Assembly (NCBI GenBank): GCA_021234155.1
Contig: JAJEKV010000011.1
Location: 1,922,001-1,986,000 of the forward strand
From: Isoetes taiwanensis
Lineage: Eukaryota; Streptophyta; Lycopodiopsida; Isoetales; Isoetaceae
Direction: 5' to 3'
Length of the DNA stretch: 64,000 bases
Shown here: positions 3,661 to 64,000 of the stretch, piece by piece
How positions within the stretch are numbered: the stretch's first letter is position 1
How the letters are laid out: each line of letters starts with the position of its first letter
Notes under the pieces: model-generated
Seen by the model: only the letters and a program-made list of their open reading frames with translations
Told to the model about the DNA's origin: nothing
Databases searched by the model: none
Translations under genes and position numbers: made by a program

Positions 3661-3759
3661 TCCTACCAAATCGATGCACGACCGGTTTTAGCAACGATGG
3701 TCTGCGGCTCAACCCCTAATTACCGTGATCGCCGTCAAGGCGGAAATTGACAAACTCCC

Positions 3760-4917
3760 TTGCTGCAGGGTTTGATCTATGAGGTCAAACATTACGAATG
3801 GGTGAGCCCCATCGTCATTGCCCTCAAACACAATGGTAAGATCCGGCGTCGTGTGGACTATCGGAACTCAATCGAGGCCACGGGCGTGATCATTTTCCAC
3901 TTCCCTTCACAGACCAGGTTCTGGAAGAGGTGGCTGGACATGAGATGTACTCCTTCATGGATGGTTTTTCTGGCTACAATGGGATCTCAATCAAAGAATC
4001 TGATCAACTCAAGACTACTTTCACCACCCCGTGGGGCACTTTTGCCTACAAGGTGGTTCCTTTTGGATTATCAAACTCTCCATCAACGTTTCAACATCAT
4101 GCTCTCAGTTTTTCATGATTTCATGAAGGAAAATCCCTTCTTGCAAATTTTTCAAGATGACTTCTCTGCTTACAGTTCCATGGCTGACCATTTGGATAAA
4201 TTGGAACTCGTCTTCCAGAAATGTGATGAGTCCGGCATTAGTCTCAATCCTGAGAAATGCACCTTTTGCGTCACCTCTGGTGTTCTGTTAGGCCATGTTG
4301 TCAGCAAAGCAGGTATCACCACAGATCCTGCCAAAATCAGTTGTGTGCTCAAGGCTCAAGCACCAGCCAATATCAAGGAGACACGCTCTTTCCTGGGTAA
4401 GGTCAATTATTACTCCACCTTCATACCTGGACTAGCAGCCATTGCAGATCCCATTCATAAACTCACGGGTGACGAATCCACCTGGGCTTGGAATTCCCAG
4501 GCGGATCTTTGCTTTCCAACAGCTGAAGCTTTTGCTTACTCAGGCACCGGTTCTTGTTCCTCCTCAATGGGACAAGCCCTTTCACGTTCATGTAGATGTC
4601 TCGGCGTTTGCTATTGGGCTGTTCTTTCTCAAGAATATGATCGCTGCCCGACAAACCAAATCGCTACGCCAGAAAAAACTCAATTCTGGCGGCGCCAACT
4701 ATTCGCCACCGGGCGTGAAGCTTTGGGTCTCATTTTTCTCGTCCAACGCTTCCGTCATTACCTTTTGGGCAGTCAAATCAAGTTCTTTGTGGACCACCAA
4801 GCACTCCTCTATTTGATCAACAAGTCCACGCCCACGGGCCGCATTGCTCGTTGGGTCCTTCTTCTCCAAGAATTTGCTCCTTTTGAAATCGTTCATAAGG
4901 CCGCAAATCTCATGTAA
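3760..4917 (+). pseudogene. pol: Reverse transcriptase-RNase H of Ty3/gypsy type, frameshifted
   Basis: The N-terminal part reads 'WVSPIVIALKHNGKIRRRVDYR', the usual gypsy RT block 1-2. The catalytic box occurs as FQDDF at 4150-4164 (YxDD type with Phe first) and is followed by the usual 'LDKLELVFQKC', 'LNPEKCTFC' and 'LLGHVVS' blocks. The RT/RNase H connection reads 'RSFLGKVNYYSTFIPGLA', and the RNase H end shows 'FFVDHQALLYLINKS' near 4780-4825. Between about 3930 and 4118 the true RT sequence (GFSGYN, TTFTTPWGTFAYKVVPFGL) is in another frame, so a pair of indels breaks the fingers/palm region. A further shift near 4500-4700 breaks RNase H. These domains would copy the RNA into DNA in an intact element. 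Confidence 0.85.
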
Positions 4918-35400: not shown

Positions 35401-35502
35401 AAGAAGAAGAAGAAGAAGAAGAAGAAGAAGAAGAAGAAGAAGAAGAAGAAGAAGAAGAAGAAGAAGAAGAAGAAGAAGAAGAAGAAGAAGAAGAAGAAGA
35501 AG

Positions 35503-35532
<30 letters not shown>
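32494..35532 (+). mobile_element. Non-coding unit 2 with (GAA)n tail
   Basis: It starts just after the first GAA run with TTCTCTTCGGATCTTC. An internal block of about 150-175 bp is duplicated (about 34075-34195 and 34245-34380). A block at 34540-34862 (GGTGATCAGTGATAAACTGA, GAGACCCAATGTACCTTTTG, GGCTGCAGGTACGGGTTCTC) matches unit 3. It ends with the GGCCTGGGTAACACCAGGGT hairpin word and about 53 GAA triplets at 35373-35532. No protein is encoded. Confidence 0.55.
35373..35532 (+). repeat. (GAA)n microsatellite, about 53 units
   Basis: An uninterrupted GAA run at the 3' end of unit 2. Confidence 0.95.
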
Positions 35533-38500: not shown

Positions 38501-38785
38501 CAGGGTGGATATTGGGATAAGTGATCTTGCCTTGAACAAGGTTCTTTTAATATAATTGTTTGCATAACTCAGACGGATCAGAAGTCTTGGCAAAGAACAT
38601 GAAGAAGAAGAAGAAGAAGAAGAAGAAGAAGAAGAAGAAGAAGAAGAAGAAGAAGAAGAAGAAGAAGAAGAAGAAGAAGAAGAAGAAGAAGAAGAAGAAG
38701 AAGAAGAAGAAGAAGAAGAAGAAGAAGAAGAAGAAGAAGAAGAAGAAGAAGAAGAAGAAGAAGAAGAAGAAGAAGAAGAAGAAGA
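35533..38785 (+). mobile_element. Non-coding unit 3 with (GAA)n tail
   Basis: It starts after the second GAA run with TTCTCTTCGAATCTTCG, matching the start of unit 2. The block 37880-38212 matches unit 2 at about 90 percent by eye. A tail word (GGCCTGGCCTAAAAAACCAG, then CTTGCCTTGAACAAGG) is at 38485-38540, then about 60 GAA triplets at 38601-38785. Short frames near 36413-36730 are not convincing. The three units lie head to tail. Confidence 0.55.
38601..38785 (+). repeat. (GAA)n microsatellite, about 61 units
   Basis: An uninterrupted GAA run at the 3' end of unit 3, directly against the LINE reading frame on the minus strand. Confidence 0.95.
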
Positions 38786-39490: not shown

Positions 39491-39876
39491 TGCCCGTCAA
39501 TATACTACTCCCCCACTGTCAGAACCCCACATGTGCCCATCTACGCTGGACACGGGGATCGACGGATGCGGCCAACACCAGAGGTGCTGCACCCGGGCCA
39601 ATCGGGATCCACCATGGTGATGCCTCTAACTGAATACAACTGGCGGCGTCAATGGCAAACAAATGGGCGGACTCTGCCCCGGGCCGCAAAGAGCCCCCTT
39701 CGTGAAGGGAGAACCCTAAAAGTCGCATTTAATTAAAGTGGGACAAATCTCGAAATTTGAGACTCGGGCTGAAAATGGGACTCGTGCAAACAAAAAATAA
39801 GTTGCCATTGAATCATTAATAGATTTTTCTTTCATAAAATAAGATGAACATTTTCACATGACAATCCGAGAAAATG

Positions 39877-40195
39877 AAGGGGGGTGGTGGAGAAAGAAGA
39901 GTAGGAAGGAAGGGGAGACAGAAGGTAGGGAGGGAGGGGGGAAAGGCAAAGGAGCACGAGGAGGGCAAAGGGGAGGGGTCGAGCAAATGGGGGGGAGGGG
40001 GGGGCGCCAAGGGGAGGGGGGGGAAGGACAAAGGGGAGGGGAGGGGCAGGACATGGGGAAGAGGAGGAGGGGCAAAGGGGGAGAGCAAAGAGGCAAAAGG
40101 GGCAAGAGGGGCAAAGGGGGAGAGCAAAGAGGCAAAAGGGGCAAGAGGAGTGGGATATGGGAAGGGGAAAAAAAGGAGGGAGGAGGGGTTCCATG
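39877..40195 (+). repeat. G/A-rich polypurine tract
   Basis: More than 300 bases of almost pure purine (GGGGAGGGG, AAAGGGGGAGAGCAAAGAGG repeated twice near 40072-40145). G-runs of four and more occur many times and could form quadruplexes. Open frames on either strand come only from this composition. Confidence 0.85.
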
Positions 40196-40309
40196 GCTAA
40201 ACAACCATTTGACAATTAATAAATGTAATTAATTAAATAATATAATTCAATCACTTAATAATATAATTAATTAATTATAAACAATAAATAATTAACAAGA
40301 GATATTTTT

Positions 40310-40329
40310 TCTCGCCTCATGAGGCGAGA
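40310..40329. other. 20-bp perfect palindrome
   Basis: TCTCGCCTCATGAGGCGAGA is its own reverse complement. It resembles in style, but not in sequence, the larger palindrome array at 42.6 kb in the same element. Confidence 0.8.
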
Positions 40330-40949
40330 ATGGGCACCGCTCACTAACATTTTATCTCGGAAATCTTTCTTTCGCCCGGTTCTGCTCTAGATTTCTGTCC
40401 TAATACACGGTGCATAGGGTTATAAACAGAGCAGACAGTGCATAACTCAAATGAATTATCACAATCTCACGGAAATGTGGAATATGGGTCATCGGCAGCC
40501 TCGCCACAACGCTTTCAATGGCTTTCATGTCACGGCATGATTTAGCAGAGTGCGAAAACACAGGCTGCAAATTATCATCCTTTTGTTTCGACTCGACTCT
40601 GTACATCAGAAGCAATCCAAGCACTAAGCGACCACTCTTTTTGCCCTGCCTTATGGATTTTATTTTCCCTTTTTGGCTCTGTTCTTCCACATCACCGCTT
40701 TATTTGGGCAACACAAACACAGTATTCTTGGCTTTGCGAATTCACAGGTCCCCTCTCTCTCCTTACTCAAATGTCTGCAGATTGACAGAAGCTTTCCCGG
40801 CCCTGTGTGCACAGCTTGGAAATCCGGTAAAGAACGCCCAAAGGCCAGAAAACGCCCAAAGGCTTCCATAGATCTTCGCTGTAGGCGACCTCTTGCCATG
40901 CAGTGCAGGCGCAGGCGCAGGCCGTCATGGCATATTATTCAAGCAAGGA

Positions 40950-41633
40950 GTGTTATTCAAACAAGGATTTACCTGCGGGATTTTCGGAAGATGTTCCGAT
41001 GGAGTTCTAAGTCCTCGAACTCCACCACAGATGCAGAGATGCAGATTCCACAGGATCTGGCAATGGCTTCTTGTACTGCAAAACAAGACCGGACCATTTC
41101 TGTTCTTACCGAGATCATAGATTTGATCATAGTAGGTACGCAGTGGGATTTTTCTTTCAAGCAAGAAGATAGATCCTGCATCAAGAATGTGGGCTTTTAG
41201 ATCTGCAAGGAAATGGCAATATCGCCATGGCGGGCTCTGCGACAAGCTCTAGATATGAAGCTTCCATTTCATTTATCAAAAGTTTGAGATCTTTAGCTCA
41301 AGAAAGCGCAAGCGAAAAGCTGAGGATGGTTGAAGAAGGATTGCCTGCGAAGCTTGTTTCCACACCTATTTCCGGTGAAACTAGTAAAGCTAATCCGTCA
41401 ATCAGAGACGCCAAGGCTTGTAAAGGCATAAAAGCTCTGTTAGGTTTGTGCCTTTCAAAAGAAAACAGAGGCGTAGATGTGAAGGCCGGAGCTGTGGAAG
41501 CTGTGAAAACAGAGGCGTAGCTGTGAAGGCCGGAGCTATGGTAAGCATGATTTTAAGCATTTCTGATCGCGAAACAGAGTATGCTGCCGAAAGAAAAAGC
41601 TATGGCATACCTGTGCCTTTTTTGATCTAAGGA
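40950..41633 (+). pseudogene. U-box/ARM-repeat E3 ligase-like fragment
   Basis: Around 40993-41075 a frame reads FRWSSKSSNSTTDAEMQIPQ D, like the start of plant U-box proteins just before the U-box, but the Cys-Pro-Ile core of the U-box does not follow. At 41227-41520 a second frame (EASISFIKSLRSLAQESASE, then NPSIRDAKACKGIKALLGLC and LSKENRGVDVKAGAVEAV) has the look of armadillo repeats from the same family. A 43-bp tandem duplication at about 41460-41545 adds a stop. U-box proteins attach ubiquitin to targets. This copy lacks the U-box and cannot do so. The family call is tentative. Confidence 0.4.
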
Positions 41634-41639
41634 GGAACA

Positions 41640-42535
41640 GAGCCGGAGAAGCAATACTGCGGCTTCAACAACGGCGCTCTTCAACAACGACTTCGCCATA
41701 GCCAGTCACGATTTTGTAAGTGTACCAAATTTCTTCTTCTCAAAAGGTATGTACCAAATCTCCCCCCTTTTTAATTTCAAATTTCGAAAATCTCCCCCCG
41801 TTTTCAATTTCAAATTTCTAACTTAAGAGGTGGGAGAAAAAAAAAGCCAAAGATTACGAGAAAAAAGCAGAATAATAATAGAGTGTACGTAAAAAAAAAA
41901 AAAATACGGATAGTGGACAATGGGTTATTTTTCTAAGGTTAATGGGTTATTTTTCTAAGGTTAATGGGAAAAAAAAGCTGGTTACATTAATATATTATAA
42001 ACATACCATTAATTGGGCTATAATTTTATTAGTGTCGCCCATGTAAATATTTGAATTTTTGTCGCAAATTGATAGCATGGTTGTGTTTATATGTGTGCTT
42101 GTATAATCATACTTTAGACCTTAGATAAAAATTTAACTTTGTGAAGATCATGATATAATTTACACCTTGTTTAACCCATTTTGAAGGTTCTTGACACAAA
42201 ATGGGGACAAGTACATATTAATATATAGGTCTAATGCTTATTAATAGATTTAATGCATAGGTATAATAGGCTCTCGTAGGTTATAATGTGCATTATAGGT
42301 GCATATGTTGCTATTTACATGTGCATTAGGCATTACTCTTTACATAGCTAAATATGAGTCCAATGGTCCCCTCTTCATATAGCTATATGGTATGGTCCAT
42401 TAGAAAGGGGGAGGGTCCATTGGATATGTGTCCATTAGATAATACATGGGGAGGGTCTATTTTTTATGGAAAATACGTAGGAAATTTATGGGGAGGGTAT
42501 TTTTTCATAGAAAATACATAGGATGTTTGAAGGTT
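41640..42535. other. No recognisable gene
   Basis: AT-rich sequence with short direct repeats (GGTTAATGGGTTATTTTTCT twice near 41925-41960, GGAGGGT and ATACATAGG words near 42410-42520). No coding content is seen. Confidence 0.45.
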
Positions 42536-43255
42536 ATTCATTTTCGACCTTCTCGGACTTTGAGCTTTGAAATTGCCCTTTTTTTACTCTGAGTTGCCTT
42601 TTTCGACTTGCGAGTCGAGAAAGGCCCTCAAACACAAGTTTTATGGATCAGAAGGCGAGAAAGGCCTTCTGATCCATAAAACCTGTGTTTCTGGCTTTGA
42701 GCTGCCTTTCTCGACTCGCGAGTCGAGAAAGGCCTCCTGACCCATAAAACCTGCGTTTCTGGCTTTGAGCTGCCTTTCTCGACTCCAAGTCGAGAAAGGC
42801 CTTCTGACCCATAAAACTTGCGTTTCTGGCTTTGAGCTGCCTTTCTCGACTCGCGAGTCGAGAAAGGCCTTCTGACCCATAAAACCTGTGTTTTTGGCTT
42901 TGAGCTGCCTTTCTCGACTCGCGAGTCGAGAAAGGCCTTCTGACCCATAAAACTTGCGTTTCTGGCTTTGAGCTGCATTTCTCGACTCGCGAGTCGAGAA
43001 AGGCCTTCCGACCCATAAAACCTCGCATTTTTTTTGCTTGAGCTGCCTTTCTAGACTTCGCGAGTCGAAAGGCCTTCTGACCCATAAAACCTGCGTTTTT
43101 AAGCTTTGAGCTGCCTTTCTCGACTCATGCGAGTCAAGAAAGGCCTTCGACCCCTAAAACTTGCATTTTTCTTTGAGCTGCCTTTCTCGACTTCGTTGAG
43201 TCGAAAAGGCCTTCCGACCCCTAAACACTGTTTTTCCCTCGAAATGCCTTTCTCA
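42536..43255. repeat. Array of about 9-10 palindromes at 66-67-bp spacing
   Basis: Each unit holds CTTTGAGCTGCC, then the half-site TTTCTCGACTCG joined to its exact reverse complement (24 bases, 28 when the flanking CC/GG pairs are included), then CCTTCTGACCCATAAAACCT. Units in the left half are nearly identical and those after 43040 are decayed. The text between palindromes is the same in every unit. Frames that translate as MGQKAFLDSRVEKGSSKP and its like are products of the repeat, not genes. Confidence 0.95.
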
Positions 43256-43393
43256 TGCCCGTATTTTCCAAAATTGCCCTAAGAACTATGTTTTATTTTA
43301 TTTTTTTTGCATGTAGCATCACTTGACTAATTTGATTTTGTCTCTTGCAGTCCTTATCTCGACCAAATAGTACATGCTTGGGAGCAATGAAAA

Positions 43394-43858
43394 GATCAGT
43401 TCATTAAAGAAAGGTGCCGAGAAGAGGGTGGTGACATCAGTTGGACATACAAGCACGTGGCCCATAAAGGAACTCATACAAATTTCTATCGTCTGTAAGT
43501 TGCTCCATGACTAGGAAAGAGCTCCACGCGCCCTTTGCACTAGGTGGTTCATGTGTGAAGAGGGTGTAATGATTGTGCCCATAATGACCACTATGGTCTC
43601 TTCACCCAATCGTAATATATATTAAGATCAGTTCATTAAAGAAAGGTGCCAAGAAGAGGGTGGTGACATCAGTTGGACATACAAGCACGTGGCCCATAAA
43701 GGAACTCATATAAATTTCTATCATCTGTAAGTTGCTCCGTGACTAGGAGAGAGCTCCACGCGCCCTTTGCACTAGGTGGTTCATGTGTGAAGAGGGTGTA
43801 ATGATTGTGCCCATACGACCACTATGGTCTCTTCACCCACTGTAATATATATTGTAAT
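43394..43858 (+). repeat. 233-bp tandem duplication, exon-like content
   Basis: The block from ATCAGTTCATTAAAGAAAGG to GTAATATATATT occurs twice in succession at about 97 percent identity. Its first 110 bases translate FIKERCREEGGDISWTYKHV AHKGTHTNFYRL and stop, and a good acceptor (TCTCTTGCAG) lies upstream at 43341-43350. It resembles the BED-type N-terminal segment of hAT-like plant transposases, but this is a guess. Confidence 0.6.
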
Positions 43859-44224
43859 GAGCCCATTTATAAATATAAGGTATCTCAAATCTAGTATTTT
43901 TGGGTGATTAAGTAAACGATTTGCATAATTTTTGTTGGAATTTGTGATCTATTGTCTACCCACCTAAGAAAATAGAGCCAAAATGTTCAACTAAGAATCT
44001 TTTTCAATTAGAACTTGATAGGTCTAATGCATGTTTGTGTTGCATTGTTCTTGTTCTCGACAGGCTATCCAAGAAAACTGGAAGAAAAGCTTGGATGCAC
44101 ACTAATAGACAAAAATTCCAATTATGGCCAGTTTTTGGGTCGGGGTGCTTCTTTTTGTGTAAAGTAACAGGGTTCCGAAAAAAAATGGGAATGGAATGAG
44201 TCCCACTTTAATTAAATACGACTT

Positions 44225-50116: not shown

Positions 50117-51490
50117 GTGACCAGTCCGTATACGGACGTTTCAATTTTGAAAAAACCCCTATCCAGTCACGCACTTGGGTCATACGTCTACAAAACGGTG
50201 AAACCCCCGGGACTCTGCAGATGCAGTGGGGCTGGAGCTGGTGAGAGTTTTGAGAAGGGGCATGCAACTTTTTCTCTATTGCCTGGATGCAGATTCTCCA
50301 GCTGTGCTGCCATCATTCTAGGAAGTTCTGGTGAGTTTCGTGAAATAGTCGATGATGTTAGAATATATGCGCAGATGATGAACCGCTTAATCGCTCGTAC
50401 TCTTGAATCTTGCGTCTTAGATGTTGTTACGCAGCAGATTCTTGAACAGCTTAGATACAAAGTGGATTCTGACTGCTGTATTTTGCAAACCACTCTTACA
50501 TGGGGTTGTGAACAAGACAAGCTTAAATTGCTACATAGGCTCAAATATGAGAATCTGAAAATTGAAAATTTATCCAAGTGGCAAACCCTATCTAAATGGG
50601 TTTCTGAGTCTAGGAATAAAGTTCTTAGAAGTTTTCCTGGAGTAGTTATAAGTTTAATTCCAATGTTAGAAGCAGGCTTATTGTTGCTACCAACTGAGCA
50701 CAATATTGAATACTCAGATCTGGAACAGGGAAATGGAGGTTATGGAGATGTAAAAAGAGCAGTATGGTGCAACATACCTGTGGCAGTGAAAGAGTTTCCA
50801 ATTAAATCCTGGACAGCTGAGTTTATAAGTTTCATAATATTGCTTCAAAATGATTCTGCTCACATAGTGCAGATATTAGGGCACACAAAAGATAACAAAG
50901 GAAAAACATGCCTGGTTCTTGAGCCCATGGTAACTGATCTTGGAAGGTTTATAACTCCAGATTCTCCATCTCCTCTATCCCTTTCACTTGATATCATGAT
51001 CCAGATTGCCAAAGCTATGAGGTATATGCATAAAAGCGGTTTAATTTACCGACATATGAAGCCATCTAATGTGCTGGTGAAGAACACAGAGGATGAATGC
51101 TTGCTGGTAAAGCTTGCTGATATTCATGTGTCTGCATCAAATACAAGCACAGTAGTTACATACACGGCTCCAGAACTGCTAGAAGGAAAATACCAATACA
51201 CATGCAAAGTGGACGTTTATAGTTTTGGCATGCTCTGTTCTGAGATTCTTACAGGAAATGCACCATTTTCCCTCAGGCTTTTTCCACAAGAAATAATAGA
51301 ACTCCTGAAGAAGGGAGAAAGGCCGCCTTTACCTGAAGGCATTCCAATTGCTCTTAAGGCAATGGTCATGAGTTGTTGGGAATACAGTGCCCATCTACGA
51401 CCTAGCTTCACGGAGATATGTAAAGAACTTTGGCTTGTGAAGGAAAAGATTTTGATTTCAGATCCGGCTGAAGAGTTATATTCAGAATAA
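50117..51490 (+). CDS. Intact kinase-like (TKL type) gene lacking the catalytic Asp
   Basis: A single open frame of 457 codons without an intron. The first Met is used, but residues 1-57 have weak composition and the real protein may start later. A splice acceptor near 50290 could instead join an upstream exon. Residues 70-195 are helical. The kinase domain runs from about 198 to 445. It has a glycine loop GNGGYGDV (205-212), VAVK with Lys225, APE at 351-353, DVYSFG at 366-371 and a late RPSFTEI block. The catalytic loop reads YRHMKPSN (311-318), so the HRD Asp is His. The DFG motif reads D-I-H (335-337). Known kinases need that first Asp for phosphotransfer, so this is probably a pseudokinase acting as a scaffold, or a gene just beginning to decay. 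It is the cleanest gene in the window. Confidence 0.75.
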   Translation: MTSPYTDVSILKKPLSSHALGSYVYKTVKPPGLCRCSGAGAGESFEKGHATFSLLPGCRFSSCAAIILGSSGEFREIVDDVRIYAQMMNRLIARTLESCVLDVVTQQILEQLRYKVDSDCCILQTTLTWGCEQDKLKLLHRLKYENLKIENLSKWQTLSKWVSESRNKVLRSFPGVVISLIPMLEAGLLLLPTEHNIEYSDLEQGNGGYGDVKRAVWCNIPVAVKEFPIKSWTAEFISFIILLQNDSAHIVQILGHTKDNKGKTCLVLEPMVTDLGRFITPDSPSPLSLSLDIMIQIAKAMRYMHKSGLIYRHMKPSNVLVKNTEDECLLVKLADIHVSASNTSTVVTYTAPELLEGKYQYTCKVDVYSFGMLCSEILTGNAPFSLRLFPQEIIELLKKGERPPLPEGIPIALKAMVMSCWEYSAHLRPSFTEICKELWLVKEKILISDPAEELYSE

Positions 51491-51840: not shown

Positions 51841-52516
51841 TGTCACGCGTGAATTATGGTGCACTCGTGACAAATTGCTTTTGTCACCCGGGACAAAACC
51901 TATAATTTCGTCGTGACAAAGTTTGATTCAGATTCGGTGGAAGCGGAAAATTTTTCTTGCGTTTCTTGCATTCTCTGGCGCCCAATCTGGGATGAAAACA
52001 ACTCTCGGTGTAATTGACTGTAAGTAGAGTAGGCATTAGCAATTTTCTATCTTTCATGGTGGTAGTCGCGTGCACATGTTACTTGTCTATGATTTGTCCA
52101 GAAGTTTACCGACATGCTTTGCCCGCTATAAGAACGTTCAGACATCTAGAACAGTTTCTGAATTCTCAACATACTGCTTAATTCTCAGGAATCATACTGT
52201 TTCTGAACATACTGCTTAATTGTCAGGAATCAGTTTCTAAAGACAATTTTGTAGTATGTAAGGCTTCAAGCTGGGGTTGGGACAAAATTTTCCTGATTAA
52301 TATAATCTTCATGGTATCTGTATTGTCTTGCGGTAAGGCCGGAAACAAGGTTCAGGGTGAAAACATTTTTGTGTGACAACATTCTTTAGTTTAGCTATAC
52401 GTTTCCTGCAATTTTTACTGATATATTCCATTTATATAGGTAAAAGTTCGATTGCGAACATATCAGTCAAATGTCAATTCCGTAATCTCTGTCTATGAGG
52501 ATGTTATAAAAGGGGT
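51841..52516. other. No recognisable gene
   Basis: AT-rich sequence. TTTCTGAA-CATACTGCTTAATT words are duplicated near 52150-52230. No protein-coding support. Confidence 0.4.
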
Positions 52517-52580
52517 AAGTCGTATTTAATTAAAGTGGGATAAATCTTGAATTTTGGGACTCGGACTGAAAATGGGACTC
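52517..52580 (+). repeat. Third copy of the AAGTCG-type transposon terminus
   Basis: AAGTCGTATTTAATTAAAGT GGGA, then GGGACTCGGACTGAAAATGG GACTC, match the left end of the 39720-44224 element over about 64 bases. Here the terminus points into the DUF7869 gene. The matching right end is not found by 57 kb. Confidence 0.75.
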
Positions 52581-52701
52581 ACACACCATCTGAATTGATT
52601 GCTTGAATAGAATTACACATGACACACAAAGAATTGGGTTACTTGTTTTCCTCATAAATTTTACAAACCACTAGTTGAGAAAGTTTTCAAACTTCTCAAT
52701 A

Positions 52702-55650
52702 TTATGTACCCTCATACAATGATATAGCATGGAGGTTGCTCATGGCTTTGTCCATCTCCCTTTTTGGGATCTTGTGTGTGTTGTCCTTTGCAATGTGAGA
52801 ACTTGGATATGACCATACCACACACTCCACCAATTCCCTCCTTTGAGGATCAGCATAATTTGCCCTCCACTTCTTCTCCCAACAGTCAGTGTATTGCTCC
52901 TTCAAGTTGCCCTTCTTGTGTCTCCCAATGGGCTCCCAATATTGAATTTGGAATCCAGGACGCAACTCCTCTCCATCAGGCATAGTGGTGGTTACATCAG
53001 AGAGTGCCACCCCTAACCATATTGGACAGTCCTCATCATCAGGCCTTACTAGCACAAAGTATCCTTCCTTGATGTCCTCAAAGGGATCCCACTTCGGAAG
53101 ATCAAACCACTTCGGCTTTGAGACCTTACTTCCCACAAACCACTTGGAACCCTTGTTAGGGACCCAAGTGAGCATTCTTAGACGTGCTTGCACCTTGAGA
53201 ACCCTCCCATCTTGACTCGGCAAGAACCCGCCTCTTAGCTCCCTCCCACATGGTTGTTCGGTTTCTAAGCATGTCACAACTTTCTCCCAAAGACTTGATT
53301 AGGGAGTCCATTTGATTTTTCTTAAGAGTGGAGGTGTGCTTTCCATTTCAACATCATCCCAAAGTCGCTTATGTAATCCTTGATGCCCTTCACTAGTTGG
53401 CTAGAGTCTTTGACAGCCTTTGAAGGGAGGTAGTGGTTTTGGCTGCCCTTTAGGAATGAGAACTTCACCAAAGAAGACCCCTTTGCCACAACTCGATACC
53501 TTGTACAGCATCCACAACTTGTCACCTGGTCTCCACTTATATTGCATGATTGGTATTCCATCCCTAACCCAAAACTTGAACTGAAGTGGCTTTGTGTGTC
53601 CCATCCAACCGGTCCTTACCATCTAGCAAGTATCCCTCTACAAATGATTTCCAATCTGCAACCTCATCCATCAAGAAAGCCATTGGGTTGGGGTCAATGC
53701 AGCTCTCATACACATCCATTAGTTCAGGGAGAGTGGTCACGTTTTCTCTCTTGAGCTTGGTGGAGAAAGTTCCAAAGAATCCATCTATATCATCATGCGT
53801 ATGCCCAACCATCATGAATCCCACTTTCACAACTTTGAATACTCCCACCGGCCGTCAAAGTATGACATTGCCCCAAACATCTATCTATTCTTGTTTTCTT
53901 TCCAACAGGTTGTCCAACTCAACACATAGCTCCTCAGGCAGTGCTTTCTCAAGTAAGGGGAAATCATCCCAAGTCCTCCTTGATTCACTAGACACCTTGG
54001 ATGTGAGCTTTTTATCCGCCTTTGGTAACAAAGCGGTTGATCATCCATCAAAGCCTCAAAATGGGTGCTTGAAGGGGAATACCTCCTCCCTTCTATCGAT
54101 CATTTCTCTAGTGTTCTCAAGCACTTGAAAATAGAGCTCACATGGAAGTTTGGATCATCCCTCCATAGATCAAGCACAAAATGACCATATGTTCCAGTTC
54201 CATGACCATGTGTTAATACACCCGCCAGACTTACTTTCATCGAAAAAGCGTTTTGACAACGCTTGGGTAAAGGATCTAGCTTTGGCAAGAAAGTCTTGTG
54301 TGTTGGTCCATCTTATCATGAATTATACACAAAAATTTGTCCCACGCATCTCGGAAAATGTTCTCCACCGCCAATACAACCGCTGTCTACATGATATTTG
54401 GTCCCTTTGGTGATCTCGCAAATTGCTCCCCTAATTGCCATTCTTTCTTTCTCTATTGCAGCTTGATGCAAGTGTATCCTTGAGTTGAATGCAAGTGTTG
54501 CACTTTGAGAATGGCATGTGTTGTAGGACACTCACGCCCGAGAAGTGAGTGCTCCATAACTTGCTGAAATGTGATTGAGAAAGAGGCCTACCTCCAAAGA
54601 GGTTTCCGGGATGGAGTTGACCTCTTTAAGGCACTCCTTTTGGATATAGTGTTGTGGCAACACTTTTTGCACCACTCGCACACCGTGCTCGTTCACCTTC
54701 TCGACTTGTGGGGCATAGATTGAGACATGTATCTCACAAAGCTCTCAAGACCGCAATGGCCTTGAGAGTATTTGCTCTAGGTTTCAAAGTGAGTGCATTA
54801 CCATGTTGGAACAAACTGTGCCCTTTTCTAACCTGCTCCCATTATCTATAGAATGAAGACTTGCTCACCCCAAGAATCCATCTCAATGCTCTCATACATA
54901 CCTTCATGCCCCTCAATTGATATAGTAGCCTTCCTGTGTTTTCATCATAGCTGGAATTCCTACACAAGGAGTAAATGAAATTAATCCTATCTTTTGAAGT
55001 CGTCCCAATGTATTGGGACCTTATCTCGCATCGAGGTCATCCACATTTTTTCGCCTTTGTGCAATCTAGGTTGCAACACTCTTGTCCCCTAATTGCCTCT
55101 AGGTTTTCTCTGGTTGGTGCCATACTTTCCATCCTTTCTAAATATTTGTCACTTCTAGGCCTCTTGGGCACCCTTGGCTGCCTTTTATGAAAAACATAGC
55201 GTCTCTTCCTTGTGATCAAAGGATGCTCATCGACCACCAAATCTTCCACATGGCCTTGGGTGGGCCTTGGGGTATGTAGTTCAGTAGGGCATTCTAGACT
55301 ATCACCATTCTTGTGTGTAATATATCTAATTGGCCATCTCAACTGAGCTTGGGACTCCAGTAGCCCAGAGCACACAATGCAATCACTAGAGCTTCCCTGG
55401 GACATGATTGTATCAACTTCGATAAGAAGCTTCACAATGCCAACTCCAAGATGTTCATCTCCCAGCCTTTCATCATTCACACTATCAAAAGGATCAACTG
55501 CAGTTATTATGCCCTCTGCAAATACCGTCTGGTTGCAAGGGTGCAACAACAAGCAACCCATCTTCCTCCATTGGAGCCTAGGGCAATGGCCTATGCTGGA
55601 CTTCCTTGGCTCCATTTTACTCATCTCACATGCTCCCTGAATGAAAAAGC
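52702..55650 (-). pseudogene. DUF7869-type protein gene, multiple breaks
   Basis: On the minus strand, in order: a region about 55620-55050 (WRKMGCLLLHPCNQTVFAEG, ending in a basic stretch and CCNLDCTKAKKCG), then 54288-54100 (VSLAGVLTHGHGTGTYGHFV), then LPEELCVELDNLLERKQE, then 53848-53564 (VGFMMVGHTHDDIDGFFGTF STKL), the hallmark of DUF7869, and further C-terminal blocks at 53622-53401 and 53277-52702 (WFDLPKWDPFEDIKEGYFVL). DUF7869 proteins are widespread multi-copy genes in green algae, mosses, ferns and some animals, often with a Cys-rich N-terminus, and their function is unknown. Stops and shifts split this copy into at least six frames. The terminus at 52517 hints that the gene belongs to a TIR element. 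Confidence 0.75.
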
Positions 55651-56470
55651 ACACATTAAAACCATATAGTTTCAAACACCACAAATATGACCATATAAAC
55701 CATATAAAACCATACAAACATATTAAATATAAACCATACAACCGTATATAACCACTAAAATCATATAACCATATTAAACCATACAACCATATTCAATGTA
55801 AACCATATGTAAACATTAAAACCATATATAACTATTGAAACTATTTAACCATTGAAACCATATTAAATATATAACATAACATAACTATTAACCTCCTCAT
55901 AACATATATAAACATATAACATAACCTTTAATATCTTGTCATGGCCACGTGGCGCCTCCTCAGAGGCTGATAGCGTGGCCATGTCAGCAACCCGCACTGC
56001 CACGTCATGGAGGGCATGGCCCACACGTGACAGATATTTATTATTGCACTTTTACGAGGTTCGAGGGTACAACCAGAATTAACTGCACCCTCTTCCTCTC
56101 CCCCCCGACCATTCTTCCTCCCCTGTTTTCTCTGATCACTCTTCGCGCTCTCTATTTTCCTTAAGTGCCCGGTTTTCCCATCAGGCGATCGAGCGAACCG
56201 AGCCATTCCAAGGCCATCTTATGACAGCAGCTTGGTCGACGGATCAGGACGCTTCCAGCGCCGAAGTTTTCGCGCAGATTGAGTGTTCGAGCGGGCGTTA
56301 CTGCCTGAGAAGAAAGTGAGGTTCTTCTCTGTAAGTTTTAGGCCTTTTTTACTGCTGCTTTTTAGTTTTCTGTAAGTCCTTTACTGCATTTTTACTTATA
56401 TTCTGTTGTTAGAGGCTCTTGATACAATTTCCAGCCCGACAAATCCTTATTCACGCTTTGCGAACGCCTG
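55651..56470. other. Non-coding stretch; AT-rich then GC-rich
   Basis: 55660-55930 consists of short repeats of ACCATATAAAACCAT-type words. From 55940 the sequence turns GC-rich (GGCCACGTGG, CCTCAGAGGCTGATAGCG), which could be a promoter or leader for the small exon that follows. No TATA box can be supported. Confidence 0.4.
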
Positions 56471-56477
56471 TACCCAC

Positions 56478-56772
56478 ATGGAATCGAACACGGGAGCTTC
56501 CTCCTCATCCAACAAATTTCCAGGTATGTTTTTGTAATATCATACCCTTTTTTAATCTCATTTGTCTCTATTGTTCTCTGTTTTCTCATTAATCTCATTT
56601 GTCTCCACTGTTCTCTGTTTTCTCATTAATCTCATTAATCTCTCTGTTATCTGTTTTCCTTTTGTATTGTTTTCTGTTTTTGTTATATTTTTCTTGGTTG
56701 TTATTGAATTGAATACATTGTACAGGCACAAGTGAGAATAGTGGTAAGAGTAGTAGCAAGCAACCGAGATAG
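56478..56772 (+). other. Possible two-exon small reading frame
   Basis: ATG at 56478 opens MESNTGASSSSNKFP and meets GTATGT after CCAG at 56523. A matching acceptor (CATTGTACAG) at 56716-56725 would continue TSENSGKSSSKQPR and stop. The product would be about 31 residues, Ser-rich and without a domain. It may be the start of a larger gene that has lost the rest. Confidence 0.25.
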
Positions 56773-57244
56773 AAATCATCAGAGACAGGTGTTAGGAAGT
56801 AAGATATTGCAGAGCATTAACAGAACATTACTAGGAATGATTCACAAAAGAAATAGCTAAACTGTCTATGAATGTTTCATAACAGAACATAACTAGGAAT
56901 GTTTTTTTCTAACTATCAATTAAGAATAGGAATTGCTTCACAGAATCTGCAATTCTAAGTCACAGCATATCCTCCACTGCAGGAGAGATGCAGAAGGGAG
57001 TGGCGAGTTGAGAATACCTCAGCTTGCCAACAATCCAGAAGTGAGTGCCTTCTTCTCGACTCTCGCTTTCGAGAAGAGGGAGTGTACACTCCGACCGCTG
57101 GCTGGTTGAGGGATTCTCGACTTCCTTGATCCGAGATTGCACCACGACTACCCAACGTCTTCACATTCTTTTTAAGCCTGCTGCAGCCTTCTCGACTCGT
57201 GAGTCGAGAATGTCATACCCTGTCAATGGCCCTTTGTGCGGTCG

Positions 57245-58650
57245 CAGGTGCCTCCACCCAGTCCGAGCCACTCTTCTCCGAACCATCCTCATCGAATATT
57301 GCGAAGAGGACTGGCTCCGACTGGGTGGAGGCCTCAGCGACTAACCACAGAGGTGCTGGCTGCTTTCTCGACTCGTGAGTCGAGAAAACGCAGGCTCTAG
57401 TGCATTCTACAGGTGCCTGCAGACAGTCTTAACCACTCTCCTTCAAACTATCTTCCTCGAATATTGCGAAGGGAAGTGGTTTTGACTGTCTGCAGGCCAA
57501 CTCTTAGCAACCCAATTCTCCTGTGTGTGGTCGCAGTGGCCTCTACCCAGTCAGAGACCGTCTCCTTCGAACCATCTTCGCCGTAATATATTGCGAAGGG
57601 ATGGGCTCGACCGGGTGGACGCCTACAACTAACCACGAAACCCTGAGCCTTGTCAGATTCTCGGCTCAAGGAGTCGAATGCCTTTACCAGCCCGGCACTC
57701 CATGTGGAGTTCCCTTCGATGGCTAAGGCATTCGACTTTGCGAAGTCGAGAATGTAGAACAAAGATACTCTACGCATTCCCTCGACCGCAAAGTCGAGAA
57801 CCTTTAGTCACCATAATTCTCCGCAGACTTACCTGGCCAGAGCCACCTCCTCTCAACCACCCCGCCCACAAGTGAGGCCCTAATCGGTGGAGGCCCCTAC
57901 AACCAACCAGCTGAAACCATGTAGCTCATTGCCCTGCATTCCCTACTGGAGTCTGAATCTTAAATCCAACAAAGACTCCATGTACCTATCCTGAGTTGAT
58001 GAGTTAATCTGGCTTCCTACCTATGAACAGAATGTGTAGACGTGCGCCACACGACTTTCGGACTCGCAGTCGAGAATCCCTTAGCCACCAATTCTCCTGT
58101 ATGGTCGCAGTGGCCTCGACTCCGCCAGAGCCACTCTCCTTCAACCATCTTCGCCGAATATTGGGGCGAGGGGCTCGGACTGGGTGGAGGCCTCTACAAC
58201 TAACCACAGGGAAACCACAGAGAGGAAGCCAAGGCTTGCATTCTCGACTCGCAAGTCGAGAATCCCTTAGCCCGATCCCACATAGCAATGCCCGCTCCCG
58301 TGCATTCTCCAGGTGCCTGCAGACAGTCTGAGCCACTCTCCTTCAAACTATATTGCTCGAATATTGCGAAGGGAAGTGGCCCTGACTGTCTGCAGGCCTT
58401 TGGGTCTTAGCACAGGTCTCTACAACTACGCACTTTGTATTCTCTTGTTTTTAGTACCAAGTGCCTCTAGCCTGTCTGAGCCACTCTCCTTCGAACCATC
58501 TTCCTCGAATATTGCGAAGAGGAGTGGTTCCGACTGGGTGGAGGCCCCTCCGACTAACCACAAGAGGATGCATTTGAAGCGCATCTCCTGGGCCTTAGAC
58601 CTAGCCTGATCTATGTACAACATTCCAAGAAAACATTCCAAGAAAAAATA
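57245..58650. repeat. Seven hairpin-forming repeats mixed with palindromes
   Basis: Units of about 85 bases at 57249-57334, 57413-57499, 57536-57625, about 57831-57895 (decayed), 58106-58195, 58312-58398 and 58459-58547 each carry arms such as GCCTCCACCCAGTC and GACTGGGTGGAGGC around a centre TCGAATATTGCGAAG. Arms differ between units (GCCTGCAGACAGTC in two) yet each arm still matches its own partner. TTCTCGACTCG-type palindromes or half palindromes lie between them (about 57190, 57365, 58240). Confidence 0.85.
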
Positions 58651-59427
58651 CACCTAAAACGGAACTGTTCTTTACCCCCGATCCATTGTTTCCTTGCCGA
58701 GCATCTCTCAACCCAGAGAGTAAATCATCTCTTGAAGCTGAAAAATGCTGGACAAGGAAACGATAAATCCGTCGAGCTTATGAGCAGTTCCATTATTTAA
58801 ACACAGACGGCATGTTCTACACGCGAAATAACACAGGCATCTCTGAAACTCACCTCTTCACGCTAGCAATTCCTTGGGCCATCAGATCACGGATCCCGCA
58901 GCCTCACCGAGAGTCTTTGCTTCTTCGTTTGGTCTCATCAAGAGTGCATTCGCATCTAATACTTGTATCATCGCGATTCTCGTATATCCCCGCTCCATGG
59001 CGCAAAGAAGTAGAGTTCCCGGTCCGGCGGCTCCTCTCCACTTCCTACCTTAGCTCGCGCTCATCGATCAAATCAACGCTGCGGTCAGAAAAATACACGA
59101 GCAAGGTGTCGTGGAGGAGCTTACCGCCGTCAAGGTGCCATTCCGAAGTCGCATACGATGCTTTCGCCCCAACTCAAAAGTCGCCAATGCCGCAGTGAAG
59201 ATAAACTACACTCAGCCACTAAGTCCCCGGATGTGATTCAATTTCGAAATAGTGTTTGGGCGGCTAAAGGCCGCCGTCTTTGTACCCTTAGCCCGCTTTT
59301 TTTCTTAAATGATTGCATGTCCTTAAATTCAAATTAAAGAACACGCCCGATCTTTTTTACATGCAGTCCTAAAACTTACAACGCGCGGAGGAAACTTAAT
59401 TTACAGAAGGGTTCGAGCAGGAAGAAG
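58651..59427. other. 5' flank of the ParB-HAD gene
   Basis: Frames at 58812-59198 are Ser/Arg-rich and unlikely to be real. In another frame near 59060-59200 INAAVRKIHEQGVVEELTAV K looks protein-like but follows a stop, and I do not recognise it. No promoter motif can be supported. Confidence 0.35.
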
Positions 59428-59589
59428 ATGAGGGGGCATACAGACATGGCGACTCCGTCCAAGAAGCGAAGCGCCGTAGCAGAAGCTGGTTCTAGCGGCA
59501 TCAAGAAGAAAAAGACAGGCGCCTCAGGTGAGCTCTGAGGTTTTTCTTTGGTCGGAATACCTTTACTGATCCATCCTTTCGTCTTGCAG

Positions 59590-60330
59590 CATTCACCGCG
59601 GACTCACTAGTGATCACTGGCCGAACTCCGTTCTTCGTCATCGAGGGACTGGAGACAGAGCTTCTTGACACACCAGCAGATTCTTGGTGGTATGTCGAGG
59701 TATCAGCAAGTGGGAAGGAGAAAGATTTGTTTCTCCACCAAAGGGACAAGAAGAGCTCCGGAGACAAGTACAAGAAGGTCGGTGTTGTGCTCTCCGTCTC
59801 AGCGCCAGATTCGAAGCATCTAACACTTCATGTCGAAGACTGCCAGAAGAGTAAGTTCTACCACACGAAAAAATTATCAGTTTCAAATTATTCTCACTCT
59901 TCCATGAGCAAGGCGAAGGGCATCGACAAAAGGCCGGCGCCTTTAAATTGTCAGAACCTTGGGTGGAAGGATCTGGAAGGGATGAAGGAGGCCGGAACCC
60001 TAACATCCAGGGAGCTTGGAATGGAGATTTCCAGAGTCAGGGAAAAACTGTTCAACACGGGGAGCTTCACTTCCACTGTGCTGAAGACTCTACAACACTC
60101 GGTAGTGGGGAGGGAAGTTGTGGTTCATAAAGAAAAAAGTTCGGACAAGACCAAAGATGGAGAAGATGACACCACACGGGAGGAATCGGATGATGAAGCA
60201 GACGAAGATATGGTCGACTCCCAATTAATGGATCCAGACGAGCAGATCAGGATTTCACAGAGAGGGGCACAGAAAATGGAGCGGCTGGCTCAGTATTATC
60301 CGTTGGGAATAGCACACAAGCTGCTCTTGG
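59590..60330 (+). pseudogene. N-terminal region of the ParB-HAD gene, unknown domain
   Basis: Exon 2 opens with FTADSLVITGRTPFFVIEGL, DTPADSWWYVEVSASGKEKD and KVGVVLSVSAPDSKHLTLHV, a beta-rich stretch of about 100 residues with no family that I recognise. A Lys-rich linker (SKAKGIDKRP) follows, then a helical part and an acidic run (DGEDDTTREESDDEADEDMV) near 60150-60215. Helices (MERLAQYYPLGIAHKLLLDI RR) lead into the ParB-like part. The frame is unbroken up to about 60405. Confidence 0.45.
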
Positions 60331-61130
60331 ACATCAGACGCCTGAAGGTCTGCACGGGAGATGCCGTCTTGTTCAACCACAGGGAATTTAATCCAGATGC
60401 TGGAGATTCTAAACCTGATGGTGCGACATCCTGTTGCAGATCCAATGCCTGCGGATGTCATACCTTTCAGCAGATCGACCGGTCAGTTGTTCAGCTGGAA
60501 GTCTGAGGAAGACCTGAAGGGAAAAGACGTCCGGTTCTGGGTAGTGGACGGTCAGCATTCAGTGAGAGCGGCGCAAGTCTTGCAGACGGAGAAGGAGGTG
60601 CCGCAAAGGATCAAGGGTATATATGCCAAGCGAGAGTGCAGAGTTCTTTCAGTGGAGACGCCAGCAACCGAACTGGCCAGCATTAGCCACTGCCAGAACA
60701 CAATAGCAGCGAGTGCCAGCTACGTAAGGTAAATAACTCTCTGATTCTTTCCATTCTCGACTCGCGAGTCGAGAAAGCCCTACCATCCTAACATTTCCCG
60801 ATTATCACTGGGGTTTCTCGACTTGCGAGTCGAGAAAGCCAAGGGAACACAGAAAATCAAAGGATGCAGAGCTTTCTCGACTCGCGAATCGAGAAAACCC
60901 AGAGAAGTAAAAGACAATTAGACATTCAAGGGACTTTCTCGACTCGCGAGTCGAGAAACCCCGGGGCTACTATTTAGTGTTTACTTCGGGTGTTTGTAAA
61001 TACTTTCATGCTCTGACATTGGGACATTGACTGAATGCAGCCCGTATCCTGACCAGATCATACACGCTCGGCAACAGTGGAAAGCATTGGGTTGTGTCCT
61101 CAGCGTCCTAAAGGAAACAGGGCTCCCTCG
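60331..61130 (+). pseudogene. ParB/Srx-like domain of the four-exon gene
   Basis: Following RRLKVCTGDAVLFNHREFNP, the frame changes and reads MPADVIPFSRSTGQLFSWKS, then VRFWVVDGQHSVRAAQVL, then VPQRIKG, ECRVLSVE and ATELASISHCQNT. The DGQHSVRAA motif (about 60548-60575) and the spacing to a later Q-N pair match the ParB N-terminal fold, where DGxHRxxAA binds nucleotide and an N-x-x-R segment follows. The Arg of DGxHR is Ser here. Intron 2 falls at SASYV, and exon 3 continues SPYPDQIIHARQQWKALG before a frame change. ParB-like domains clamp on DNA using CTP or, in phage proteins, sit in front of methyltransferases. The residue matches support the fold, not an activity. Confidence 0.5.
60754..60958. 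repeat. Four palindromes inside intron 2 of the ParB-HAD gene
   Basis: TTTCTCGACTCG joined to its inverse (22-24 bases) occurs at 60754-60775, 60814-60837, 60873-60896 and 60935-60958. The second and third have one mismatch in the core. The spacing is about 60 bases. They fill most of a 312-base intron. Confidence 0.95.
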
Positions 61131-61382
61131 GATAAGTGGAAGACCTTTGAGAAACTCTGCAGATATGTTCTGCTGGAGGGCCAGGAAGATGATGAGGGAG
61201 AGGATGAAGAGGAGAAGAAGAAGAGAACACTAAGGAAGGGCAGGGAGTCTCTCTCAGACCAATATGACCTCATTCTTAGCACTGAGGCGGTCTGGGAGAA
61301 ATGGACTGAGATATGAGCTCAATGGACAAGAGGCAAGCTGAAGGACAGCAATGGAGAATTTCCAAGCAGGCCGGACCCCAAG

Positions 61383-62653
61383 TTGTTCGACAAGCAGTTC
61401 ATGAAAAGGATACAGGGCCTGACGGACAAAGAAACGCTTGACCTACAAGGCAGAACCTTGGATGGAACAATCCTGCTAAGGAAGACTAGGAGTTCTAAAA
61501 TGCAGGACGCAAAGGATTATGCCACAGTCCTAAAGAGACAGCGTGCGTTAGAAGAAGGCATCACGGAGTTCTGCAATGTTGCATCTAATGAATACCATAA
61601 CTTTAATTATTACAAGGAAAAGGCTGCCCTTGATGAGGAAGACATGAAGGAATTGAACCGTCTATGTCAACCCTACATCAACACCAAGCTAAAGCATAAC
61701 GTCAAAACCCTTCCCTTCCCTGAACGTGCTATGGCAATTCTGAAGAGGAAGCTTGGATTCGGGGTGGTCCCATTTAAGGCCGATGATAGCTCCCCTCCAT
61801 TTCTGGTAACTTTGGGACACAAGGGATTTGGTGGTCTGGAACTGGCACCTGGACCCGTGGCACGATTTGCCATCAATATGATCGAAGACCCCACCATTTT
61901 TTATGACAAAGCTGACATAGAGCAGTGGTACAAGACGTGTCTGGACATGACCGACCTGGATACTTTCAGTTTCCTTGTCTTTTGCATGCCGGGCAATCAG
62001 ACAACTGCTGTCTCCCAATGGGCAGCTGATATTAACTTCACCAACAAGATCATGTACTCCATATACGAACTTGAACATGAGTGTAGACTTGGCTTGCCGA
62101 AGGCACCAAGCTTTGCCAATATAGTTTTGGTTTTGATTTCAAGATCGGCTATAGACCTGGATAAGTGGTGGTCTAGCGAACATCATTATCTCGACAGGTT
62201 CATGATCTCTCAAGAGCAGATGGAACCCTGGAAGGGCGGCAGATTTATGGAGGATGTGCCATCGATGGACAAAGTCAGCAAAGATGGTGTGACAGGTCCT
62301 ATACATAGAATTCCTATCCGGCCAAGAGTTATCAAGTACTTCATAACCAGCTTGGTCGAGGAAGATCAAATTGTATGCGAGTGGTACATGAATGGCCTGT
62401 TCTCTCAGGGGGCTATGCTTTATGGAATGAAACCTATATCCGTGGTTGGAAATAAGGACATGGTTGAAACCATTCGGTCATACCTAGATCTGCTTCATGA
62501 GCATTTCAAAGGGAGGAAGACAAATGGAAGAAGTAAAGACGACGAGGACGAAGACAAACCTGGGAGCGAGGGAGACAAAGCTGACGGAGACGAGAATGTC
62601 GAAGGTTTAGACCAGAATGCTGCCGAACACATTCTTGAGAATCTGAGATTGAG
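61383..62653 (+). pseudogene. Middle region resembling a degenerate beta-class DNA methyltransferase
   Basis: The frame runs unbroken from the TGA at 61314 to the donor at 62653. IEDPTIFYDKADIEQWYKTC lies where a DPPY-type motif followed by a helix would be expected, and FLVFCMPGNQTTAVSQWAAD follows like a catalytic-domain strand and helix. Then IHRIPIRPRVIKYFITSLVE, then DQIVCEWYMNGLFSQGAMLY and GMKPISVVGNKDMVETIRSY L are laid out like the C-terminal AdoMet-binding part of CcrM-type enzymes (K-P-x-x-L-I, then D-P-F-x-G-S-G-T, then a G-x-D/E strand). The key residues DPPY and FxGxG are not conserved, so any methyltransferase here would be inactive. The fold assignment is a pattern match by eye. 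The region ends in an acidic tail (KDDEDEDKPGSEGDKADGDE). Confidence 0.35.
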
Positions 62654-62678
62654 GTGAGTTTACTTTGCTCTATCGGTG

Positions 62679-62755
62679 TTTCTCGACTCGCGAGTCGAGA
62701 AAACTCGTTTCCTTTCAATACTTTTTCTTTCCATTCTCGACTCGCGAGTCGAGAA
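62679..62755. repeat. Two palindromes inside intron 3
   Basis: The same palindrome is present at 62679-62702 and 62734-62755, each followed by the identical ACTCGTTTCCTTTC word. They make up over half of a 138-base intron. Confidence 0.95.
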
Positions 62756-62791
62756 AACTCGTTTCCTTTCTGACAGATGTCATCATTTCAG

Positions 62792-63629
62792 GGAGTTCCA
62801 TGTCAACGACTCCAGATCATTGTTAATATCTAGCGGTGGTTCACGTCGCGAGGAGGACAATGCACTCCACAAAGACAATCCAGAGCAAGACACTGCTCAC
62901 AGCCAGAAAGGACCTGAAAAGATAATGATCCCGCATATGGATCCCGATGAACTGGAAATATGGTCAGAGCCAAACTCCAGCTGGTCCCGCCAAGCTTGTA
63001 ATATTTGACGTCAATGGAGTATTAGCTGCAGTATACCACGATAAAAACGTCCCCGAGCTTAACACCTCGCAGATCCCGACGAAAACGGAGCATAAAATAG
63101 TGTATCCGAGGCCTAGAGCAAAGGAAATTGTTGAATGGTGCCTGGAACGGGGATTCGAAGTGGGCATATGGTCTTGTATGGCAAAGAAAAATATTGTCAA
63201 TGTTCTTGGTGTTCTCGGCCTTCCAGTTTTGAAGTTCAAGTTCGTTGGGGAAACGAAAGGGTCGAGCATGTGTCGGACCTCGATCCAACCATCACAAAGG
63301 GGAAGCCTATTATGGTGAAAAGGTTGGACAGGGTTTATGAGCAATTCCCGGACTATGGCAAACACAACACGCTGATCATAGACGACTCCGCCTACAAGTG
63401 CTATCATAACTCGCAAAATACAATCCTTGCTAAGGCATATCGACCTGAAGAGTATGAGACGGATAGGTGGTTGTCTTTCGGACTTTGTCCTGTCTTGGCG
63501 GAATCCCTCTTTGCCATTCTTGTCGCCGATGTGATTAGGAACTATCCGACCCTCACGGAACCCGATCCAGAGAGCAAGGCGATCATGAAAGCTATGGACG
63601 GCAAATATTTTGGTGATCAAGAAGAGTGA
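62792..63629 (+). pseudogene. FCP1/NIF-type HAD phosphatase domain
   Basis: Exon 4 starts REFHVNDSRSL and, after a frame change near 62975, reads AKLVIFDVNGVLAAVYHDKN. The HAD motif I is therefore D-V-N-G (Asp codon at 63007-63009) instead of D-x-D. Plant FCP1-homology proteins with a D-x-N-G motif are known. Motif II follows as VGIWSCMAKKNIVNVLGVLG, a Lys occurs in TKGKPIMVKRLD, and motif III reads LIIDDSAYKCYHNSQNT (DD codons at 63381-63386). The order and spacing fit FCP1/CTD small phosphatases, which remove phosphate from RNA polymerase II or other proteins. A second frame change lies near 63255. The exon ends with FGDQEE and stop at 63629. Confidence 0.82.
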
Positions 63630-64000
63630 CCTCTGCTTTCAGATAGTCAAATTGTGTGAATATTGTAAACAAACGTGAACAAATGTATTAAACATGTTGT
63701 AATGAATATACTTGTATATTGAGTTTTCGCTGGCTTTCTCGACTCACGAGTCGAGAAAGGCATGCTTGTCCTGTTGATGAGACCATTTGTATGTTTGATT
63801 GTGTGACTGGATGCAACCACAATCTACTATGATAATGATTGTACATTGCGTTTCCTGGGCCTTTCTCGACTGAGTCGAGAAAGGCACTGGTTGTCTCGTT
63901 GACGAAACCATTTGTATGCTTCCGTGTGTGATTGGATGCAACCATATTCTAATGAGAATGGTTATACTTTGACTTTTTCGGGCCGAGTCGAGAAAGACAC
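63630..64000. repeat. 3' flank with palindromes in a tandem repeat
   Basis: Palindromes occur at 63735-63758 (one mismatch) and 63860-63884 (shortened centre), and a partial copy is at 63975-63996. They lie in units of about 120 bases that also repeat ACCATTTGTATG and GATTGGATGCAACCA-type words. The repeat runs off the window edge. Confidence 0.9.

Follow-up and report, generated by a model that had tools for sequence, protein, structure and literature searches.

The gene at positions 59428 to 63629 of the analysed stretch of Isoetes taiwanensis DNA (64,000 nucleotides of contig JAJEKV010000011.1, hereafter the window) lies within a 12.4-kb DNA transposon of the cut-and-paste type, whose opposite strand holds a DUF7869-type gene. 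Insertion of this transposon mostly duplicates 4 bp of the target, and its ends number well over a thousand in the genome. The gene is almost certainly an accessory gene of the element, and its product is predicted from the sequence to combine three domains: one is ParB-like, one is related to the permuted beta-class DNA methyltransferases but lacks the DPPY and glycine-rich motifs that are usual in them, and one is a HAD domain resembling that of FCP1.

Membership in a mobile element, raised as an aside in the initial annotation, was established by the terminal repeats and target duplications. The genome assembly (1,658,258,908 bases in 1110 contigs) was searched, and the best copy of exon 3 (C968) was taken with its flanks, together with 8 kb past the window, for a comparison of borders. 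The two copies were collinear over window positions 52516-58234 (91.0%) and 58332-64906 (94.6%) and nowhere beyond. Each border of the window copy has a perfect 24-bp inverted repeat, whereas C968 has one mismatch at its left end, and the flanking duplications were GGGT/GGGT for the window copy and CTTT/CTTT for C968. Ten further end pairs showed an exact 4-bp duplication in seven cases, one of 5 bp in one case and none in two, and a control of mismatched pairs gave 0 of 90. Genome-wide, the end repeat was found with at most one mismatch 1333 times in the forward and 1362 times in the reverse orientation, and its reversed control not at all. Among the first 100 places listed, 35 neighbouring end pairs in plus-then-minus order were counted, lying 3-6 kb apart (13), 10-15 kb apart (14) or at other distances (eight). 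Exon 3 had at least 97 matches including the window copy, the others being 73-97% identical; this is a lower bound from 95 scored of 4107 first-look candidates.

The DUF7869 gene lies about 3.6 kb upstream of the accessory gene and, judged by its position, is presumed to encode the transposase; DUF7869 was the only assignment obtained for it with Pfam. The same family (PF25273) gave 9903 first-look candidates across the genome, and the 150 scored reached about 167-187 bits and were mostly stop-free. Target duplications of 4 bp, which are not unique to the Sola superfamily, flanked both the window copy and C968. They are a criterion for that superfamily in the available part of PMC10741241. A short second copy of 4,505 bp (Table 1) holds a palindrome array at 42.6-43.2 kb and, at 43349, the opening codons of exon 3 (E 0.01 in a search within the window, with 10 of 15 residues alike); a target duplication was looked for around it and none was seen. 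The idea that one element spans 42.6 to 64 kb was rejected because the 42.6-kb array sits in this separate 4.5-kb element. Directly after its exon-3 fragment the short copy also contains a 232-bp tandem duplication (43392-43853, 96% matches).

The initial annotation of a four-exon, same-strand gene of about 1,230 codons was confirmed: the frames and splice sites give four exons on one strand, GT-AG introns of phases 1, 2 and 2, and a spliced length of 3690 nt, or 1230 codons (Table 1).

Table 1. Features of the transposon, its accessory gene and the short second copy (window coordinates).
Feature	Position	Strand	Basis
Complete DNA transposon	52517..64000; right end at window coordinate 64906 (906 bp past the window, in L077)		Collinearity with C968, inverted ends, 4-bp duplications
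Left terminal inverted repeat, 24 bp, perfect partner ending at 64906	52517..52540	+	
Degenerate DUF7869 (PF25273) gene, presumed transposase	52705..55792	-	Joined pieces match in Pfam at E 3.4e-28
Subterminal-type repeats: palindrome variants and inverted units (about 83 bp)	57054..58568		
Exon 1, lysine-rich N-terminus	59428..59527	+	Frames, splice sites
Exon 2: N-terminal region without assignment, acidic linker, ParB-like (DGQHS) domain; frame change near 60400	59590..60728	+	
Intron 2, four palindrome copies (18-bp core, at most 3 mismatches)	60729..61040	+	
Exon 3: methyltransferase-like domain preceded by the end of the ParB-like region and a helical region	61041..62653	+	
Exon 3 breaks	Frame change near 61130, TGA at 61314	+	
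Intron 3, two palindromes	62654..62791	+	
Exon 4: FCP1/HAD domain (DVNGVL ... LIIDDS) after a linker; frame changes near 62975, 63255	62792..63629	+	
Short second copy, 4,505 bp, same ends (left end one mismatch)	39720..44224		

The FCP1/HAD domain, described as clear from the start, was borne out by Pfam. The NIF family (PF03031) matched exon 4 in two halves (E 1.1e-3 and 2e-4), which at 19.1 and 21.5 bits fell just below the curated cut-off of 21.8, and the read-through sequence gave E 1.4e-10 and 41.6 bits, above it. The canonical first motif of FCP1/SCP phosphatases is DxDx(T/V), with a second aspartate. The window copy reads DVNGVL, with asparagine in that place, and the D-V/A/I-N-G form recurred in all nine other copies, as found with a pattern that fixed the first D. 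The later DD was kept in nine of the ten copies, L086 reading DN. The domain thus resembles that of FCP1/SCP phosphatases in being complete and in retaining the first aspartate, but differs from it in the second aspartate and in being fused to ParB-like and methyltransferase-like parts. Searching the PDB with phmmer gave no relevant match for either the HAD or the ParB part. The NIF/FCP1 family is itself amplified in the genome, with 3261 first-look candidates and at least 151 matches from the 150 scored, which form a long plateau of near-equal scores in mostly stop-free frames; the loci with a DxNGVL motif, among those read, fell by eye into at least four families.

Twenty loci with an NIF exon were sampled from the genome, and three of them (L064, L075 and L076) have the upstream exon and the middle region in common with the window gene. 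Together with L092, L093 and L094 they are referred to here as group D, a label coined in this work. This divergent family is multi-copy (at least 104 matches listed, 88 of 3047 candidates scored), and its HAD part matched NIF with E 9.5e-21 and 74.6 bits. Its ParB region is homologous to that of the window gene (score 178, z 31.5, 0 of 500 shuffles) and carries the motif as AGQHS in L075 and ADQHS in L064, while L076 retains the exon without the motif stretch. The N-terminal part was less similar (z 3.3, 3 of 500 shuffles). Among the other 17 loci, the five read upstream (L057, L060, L070, L071 and L073) showed different exons by eye, either cysteine-rich or coiled-coil-like.

For the ParB-like part, the DGQHS stretch gave three weak family matches on identical residues (PHROG ParB 0.026, DUF6551 0.066, TIGR03187 0.12). 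Comparison with a viral DGQHR protein gave z 8.1 with 0 of 500 shuffles, a value that is inflated because that protein had been retrieved with short query peptides such as FWVVDGQH. A search for relatives of the viral protein returned only itself.

The stretch 61317-62654 had no family match by itself in Pfam, PHROG and other libraries, the PDB or phage tblastn, and Pfam and PHROGs gave no relevant match to the ParB and methyltransferase parts of group D. The methyltransferase-like identity is a modelled one, reaching the window gene only through the related group D: the group D structure model has a methyltransferase fold with CcrM among its closest folds, and the permuted order of elements of beta-class DNA N6A/N4C methyltransferases was found in it. 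In the window-family profile, two cores of group D, L064 (19.0 bits) and L075 (7.2), scored above the maximum of 1800 shuffles (6.1). The reverse profile placed L086 (19.7), L085 (18.1) and L087 (11.2) above the maximum of 1200 shuffles (6.9). The middle domain is assigned to the window family because of these moderate profile scores and because the parts on either side of it are clearly homologous. The DPPY and FxGSG motifs are needed for catalysis; neither was seen in the window family when aligned with the phage set, and the stretches aligned to DPPY in group D read VHTQ or THTD.

Several results weigh against this domain reading. The group D ParB region compared with the same viral DGQHR protein only at z 1.3, and a DGQHS-type motif was present in three of ten copies (DGQHS in the window copy and L083, DDQHS in C968), the pattern finding none in the other seven. 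Exon 3 and group D gave z 1.4 as a single pair, with 49 of 500 shuffles as good; hhalign of the two families gave a probability of 2% (P 0.021), in the helical region only. The other four of the six group D cores were not above the shuffle maximum, and the window copy itself scored 6.3 in the reverse profile, below 6.9. The group D model had a mean predicted local distance difference test score (pLDDT) of 55.5, and the single-sequence prediction of window exon 3 reached 35. Finally, exon 3, its C-terminal part and group D gave nothing significant by hhalign against 18 phage ParB-methyltransferases (in one of the runs, 15.0 observed with a column-shuffled control of mean 12.3 and maximum 22.0). 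The three-domain reading of the initial annotation nevertheless holds up, with the methyltransferase coming through group D. The DGQH region and the 61383-62653 region did not emerge as unrelated folds; the latter fold was modelled on the group D relative, and the ParB-like part is without a predicted structure. The three domains as named are considered probable, a judgement held slightly lower than at first since it was the motif itself that led to the choice of the viral DGQHR protein.

Proteins of this kind are known. According to the available part of PMC12477816, ParB-methyltransferase proteins are encoded as accessory genes by DNA transposons in brown, green and red algae. The accessory gene of Sola1-1_Ec32 of Ectocarpus, compared by description only, likewise lies in a large DNA transposon opposite to the transposase strand and combines ParB-like and N4/N6 methyltransferase domains (1104 residues there, 1230 codons here); it differs in that its element measures 21.5 kb against 12.4 kb here and that the available text mentions no HAD domain (PMC12477816). 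Its methyltransferase is predicted there to make N4-methylcytosine (N4mC) or N6-methyladenine (N6mA). The green and red algal proteins are described as similar and are known here through that citation only (PMC12477816). The layout of giant algal transposons, with the accessory protein opposite to the presumed transposase, is seen in the present element, with a ParB identity that is weak by sequence. No other report of transposons with a ParB-methyltransferase gene turned up in the literature search, and a search of limited depth found no precedent for the added HAD domain, the lost catalytic motifs or the linked palindromes, the features in which the present case differs. The view that the plant gene was unprecedented does not hold for the ParB-methyltransferase pairing, which is known from algal transposons in the available part of PMC12477816.

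Phage ParB-N6/N4 methyltransferases, such as that of phage WO (L002:15672-16886), share the order of ParB_N followed by N6_N4_Mtase. The phage WO protein has no HAD match, and DPPY and FxGSG, absent from the window family, are invariant in 10 of 10 aligned phage relatives. A recent phage or giant-virus insertion was rejected: exon 3 had no phage tblastn match and none was confirmed in viral contigs, and the matches of the ParB piece were to phages of Pelagibacter (nine records, E 2) and to one viral contig.

A candidate DNA target is offered by a 24-bp palindrome, TTTCTCGACTCGCGAGTCGAGAAA, which has 2686 exact sites in the genome, its reversed control having none. Its 18-bp core (at most 3 mismatches) occurs 15 times in the window and L077, always within one of the two elements and never in the remaining 55.1 kb; a further palindrome-like site at 40311, with 4 mismatches, falls outside this count. 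The C968 element has 17 core sites, and none were present in L049-L076. Among the genome sites listed, 28 of 50 (21 of 33 clusters) had an end repeat within 13 kb, where about 4% would be expected by chance. Against a function of the intron copies, their columns were not clearly better conserved than neighbouring ones (mismatch 0.386 vs 0.278 in intron 2 and 0.157 vs 0.214 in intron 3).

Taken as a whole, the best explanation, given a slightly better than even chance, is that the window holds a broken copy of a transposon helper gene with three joined domains acting by the mechanism outlined here. We infer that the protein is a non-transposase helper. Transposon context, copy number, selection on exon 3 and domain relations were demonstrated, and the steps beyond them are proposals. 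Through its ParB-like part the protein would bind the palindromes that cluster in the introns and subterminal regions and so be loaded onto the element that encodes it. As a clamp, the methyltransferase-like part would keep hold of the DNA, without catalysis or with altered catalysis, and the HAD part would bind or modify a phosphoprotein involved in transcription or chromatin, for example the tail of RNA polymerase II. As an outcome, the element would escape silencing, stay expressed or have its ends brought together. The full mechanism, comprising palindrome binding, the DNA clamp and the phosphoprotein role, is tentative, with perhaps one chance in several of being correct. Somewhat more doubtful is a partition-like system on a plant transposon, in which a ParB-like protein with a DNA-clamp methyltransferase fold and a pseudo-phosphatase would recognise parS-like 24-bp palindromes in introns, subterminal regions and short derivatives, keeping the element expressed and mobile.

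Alternatively, the fusion gene could be passenger cargo, captured and hitchhiking without helping the element. Plant transposons reportedly capture genes, and short copies spread too, as the 3-6 kb end pairs listed above indicate. However, the ratio of nonsynonymous to synonymous substitutions (dN/dS) was 0.14-0.46 in every one of the 45 pairwise comparisons among 10 stop-free copies of exon 3, the window copy included, although the choice of stop-free copies may favour low values. The same layout also recurs in the divergent group D, and the same ParB-methyltransferase cargo is reported from algal transposons (PMC12477816, available part), which makes simple hitchhiking improbable. 

Prokaryote-type ParB-methyltransferase genes are described from distantly related algae, where large DNA transposons carry them and a function has only been suggested (PMC12477816). 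To this the present case contributes a genome in which element ends number in the thousands, and two divergent families of the same layout. It also adds a methyltransferase part that is under selection yet catalytically degenerate, an FCP1-like domain and a candidate DNA target in the palindrome, whereby a helper function becomes testable by a simple binding assay.

A little less credible than passenger cargo is an active self-methylating accessory factor, which would bind the element and write N6-methyladenine or N4-methylcytosine, perhaps at GANTC sites of the palindrome. CcrM, which is among the closest folds, reads GANTC, and the palindrome contains GACTC and GAGTC. Such a role has been proposed for the Ectocarpus protein, whose predicted products would suit it (PMC12477816, available part). 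The replacement of DPPY in group D, and the fact that neither DPPY nor FxGSG was seen in the window family, argue against it.

The breaks noted initially were found again, with one frame change in exon 2, one in exon 3 and two in exon 4, in addition to the TGA at 61314. That these are assembly errors and the copy is intact in the plant is very unlikely. A GGGG run does adjoin one of the frame changes; however, among the nine other copies taken with their flanks, C968 and L082, which span all four exons, are both broken as well, and L080, L081, L082, L085 and L086 have stops within the HAD motif stretches, as for old transposon copies. The other seven of the nine stretches start within exon 2 or are without exon 1. 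For the intact relatives that, according to the initial annotation, must be sought elsewhere, the search covered this same genome: relatives exist there, and both copies covering all exons are broken. A host plant gene with a transposon inserted into or around it, to which the exon-intron structure typical of a nuclear gene might point, is ruled out for practical purposes by the position within terminal repeats, the collinearity with C968, the separate target duplications of the two copies and the high copy number.

Elsewhere in the window, an open protein kinase gene of 457 residues (50117-51487, PK_Tyr_Ser-Thr E 5e-33) lies about 1 kb from the left end of the transposon. A remnant with reverse transcriptase and RNase H (3751-4914; RT_RNaseH E 1e-12, RVT_1 E 1.2e-5) has the look of a Ty3-type retrotransposon, and long arrays of the GAA/AAG triplet, each with 39 to 64 copies and 97-100% matches, are located at 38593-38785, 35372-35532 and 32375-32492.

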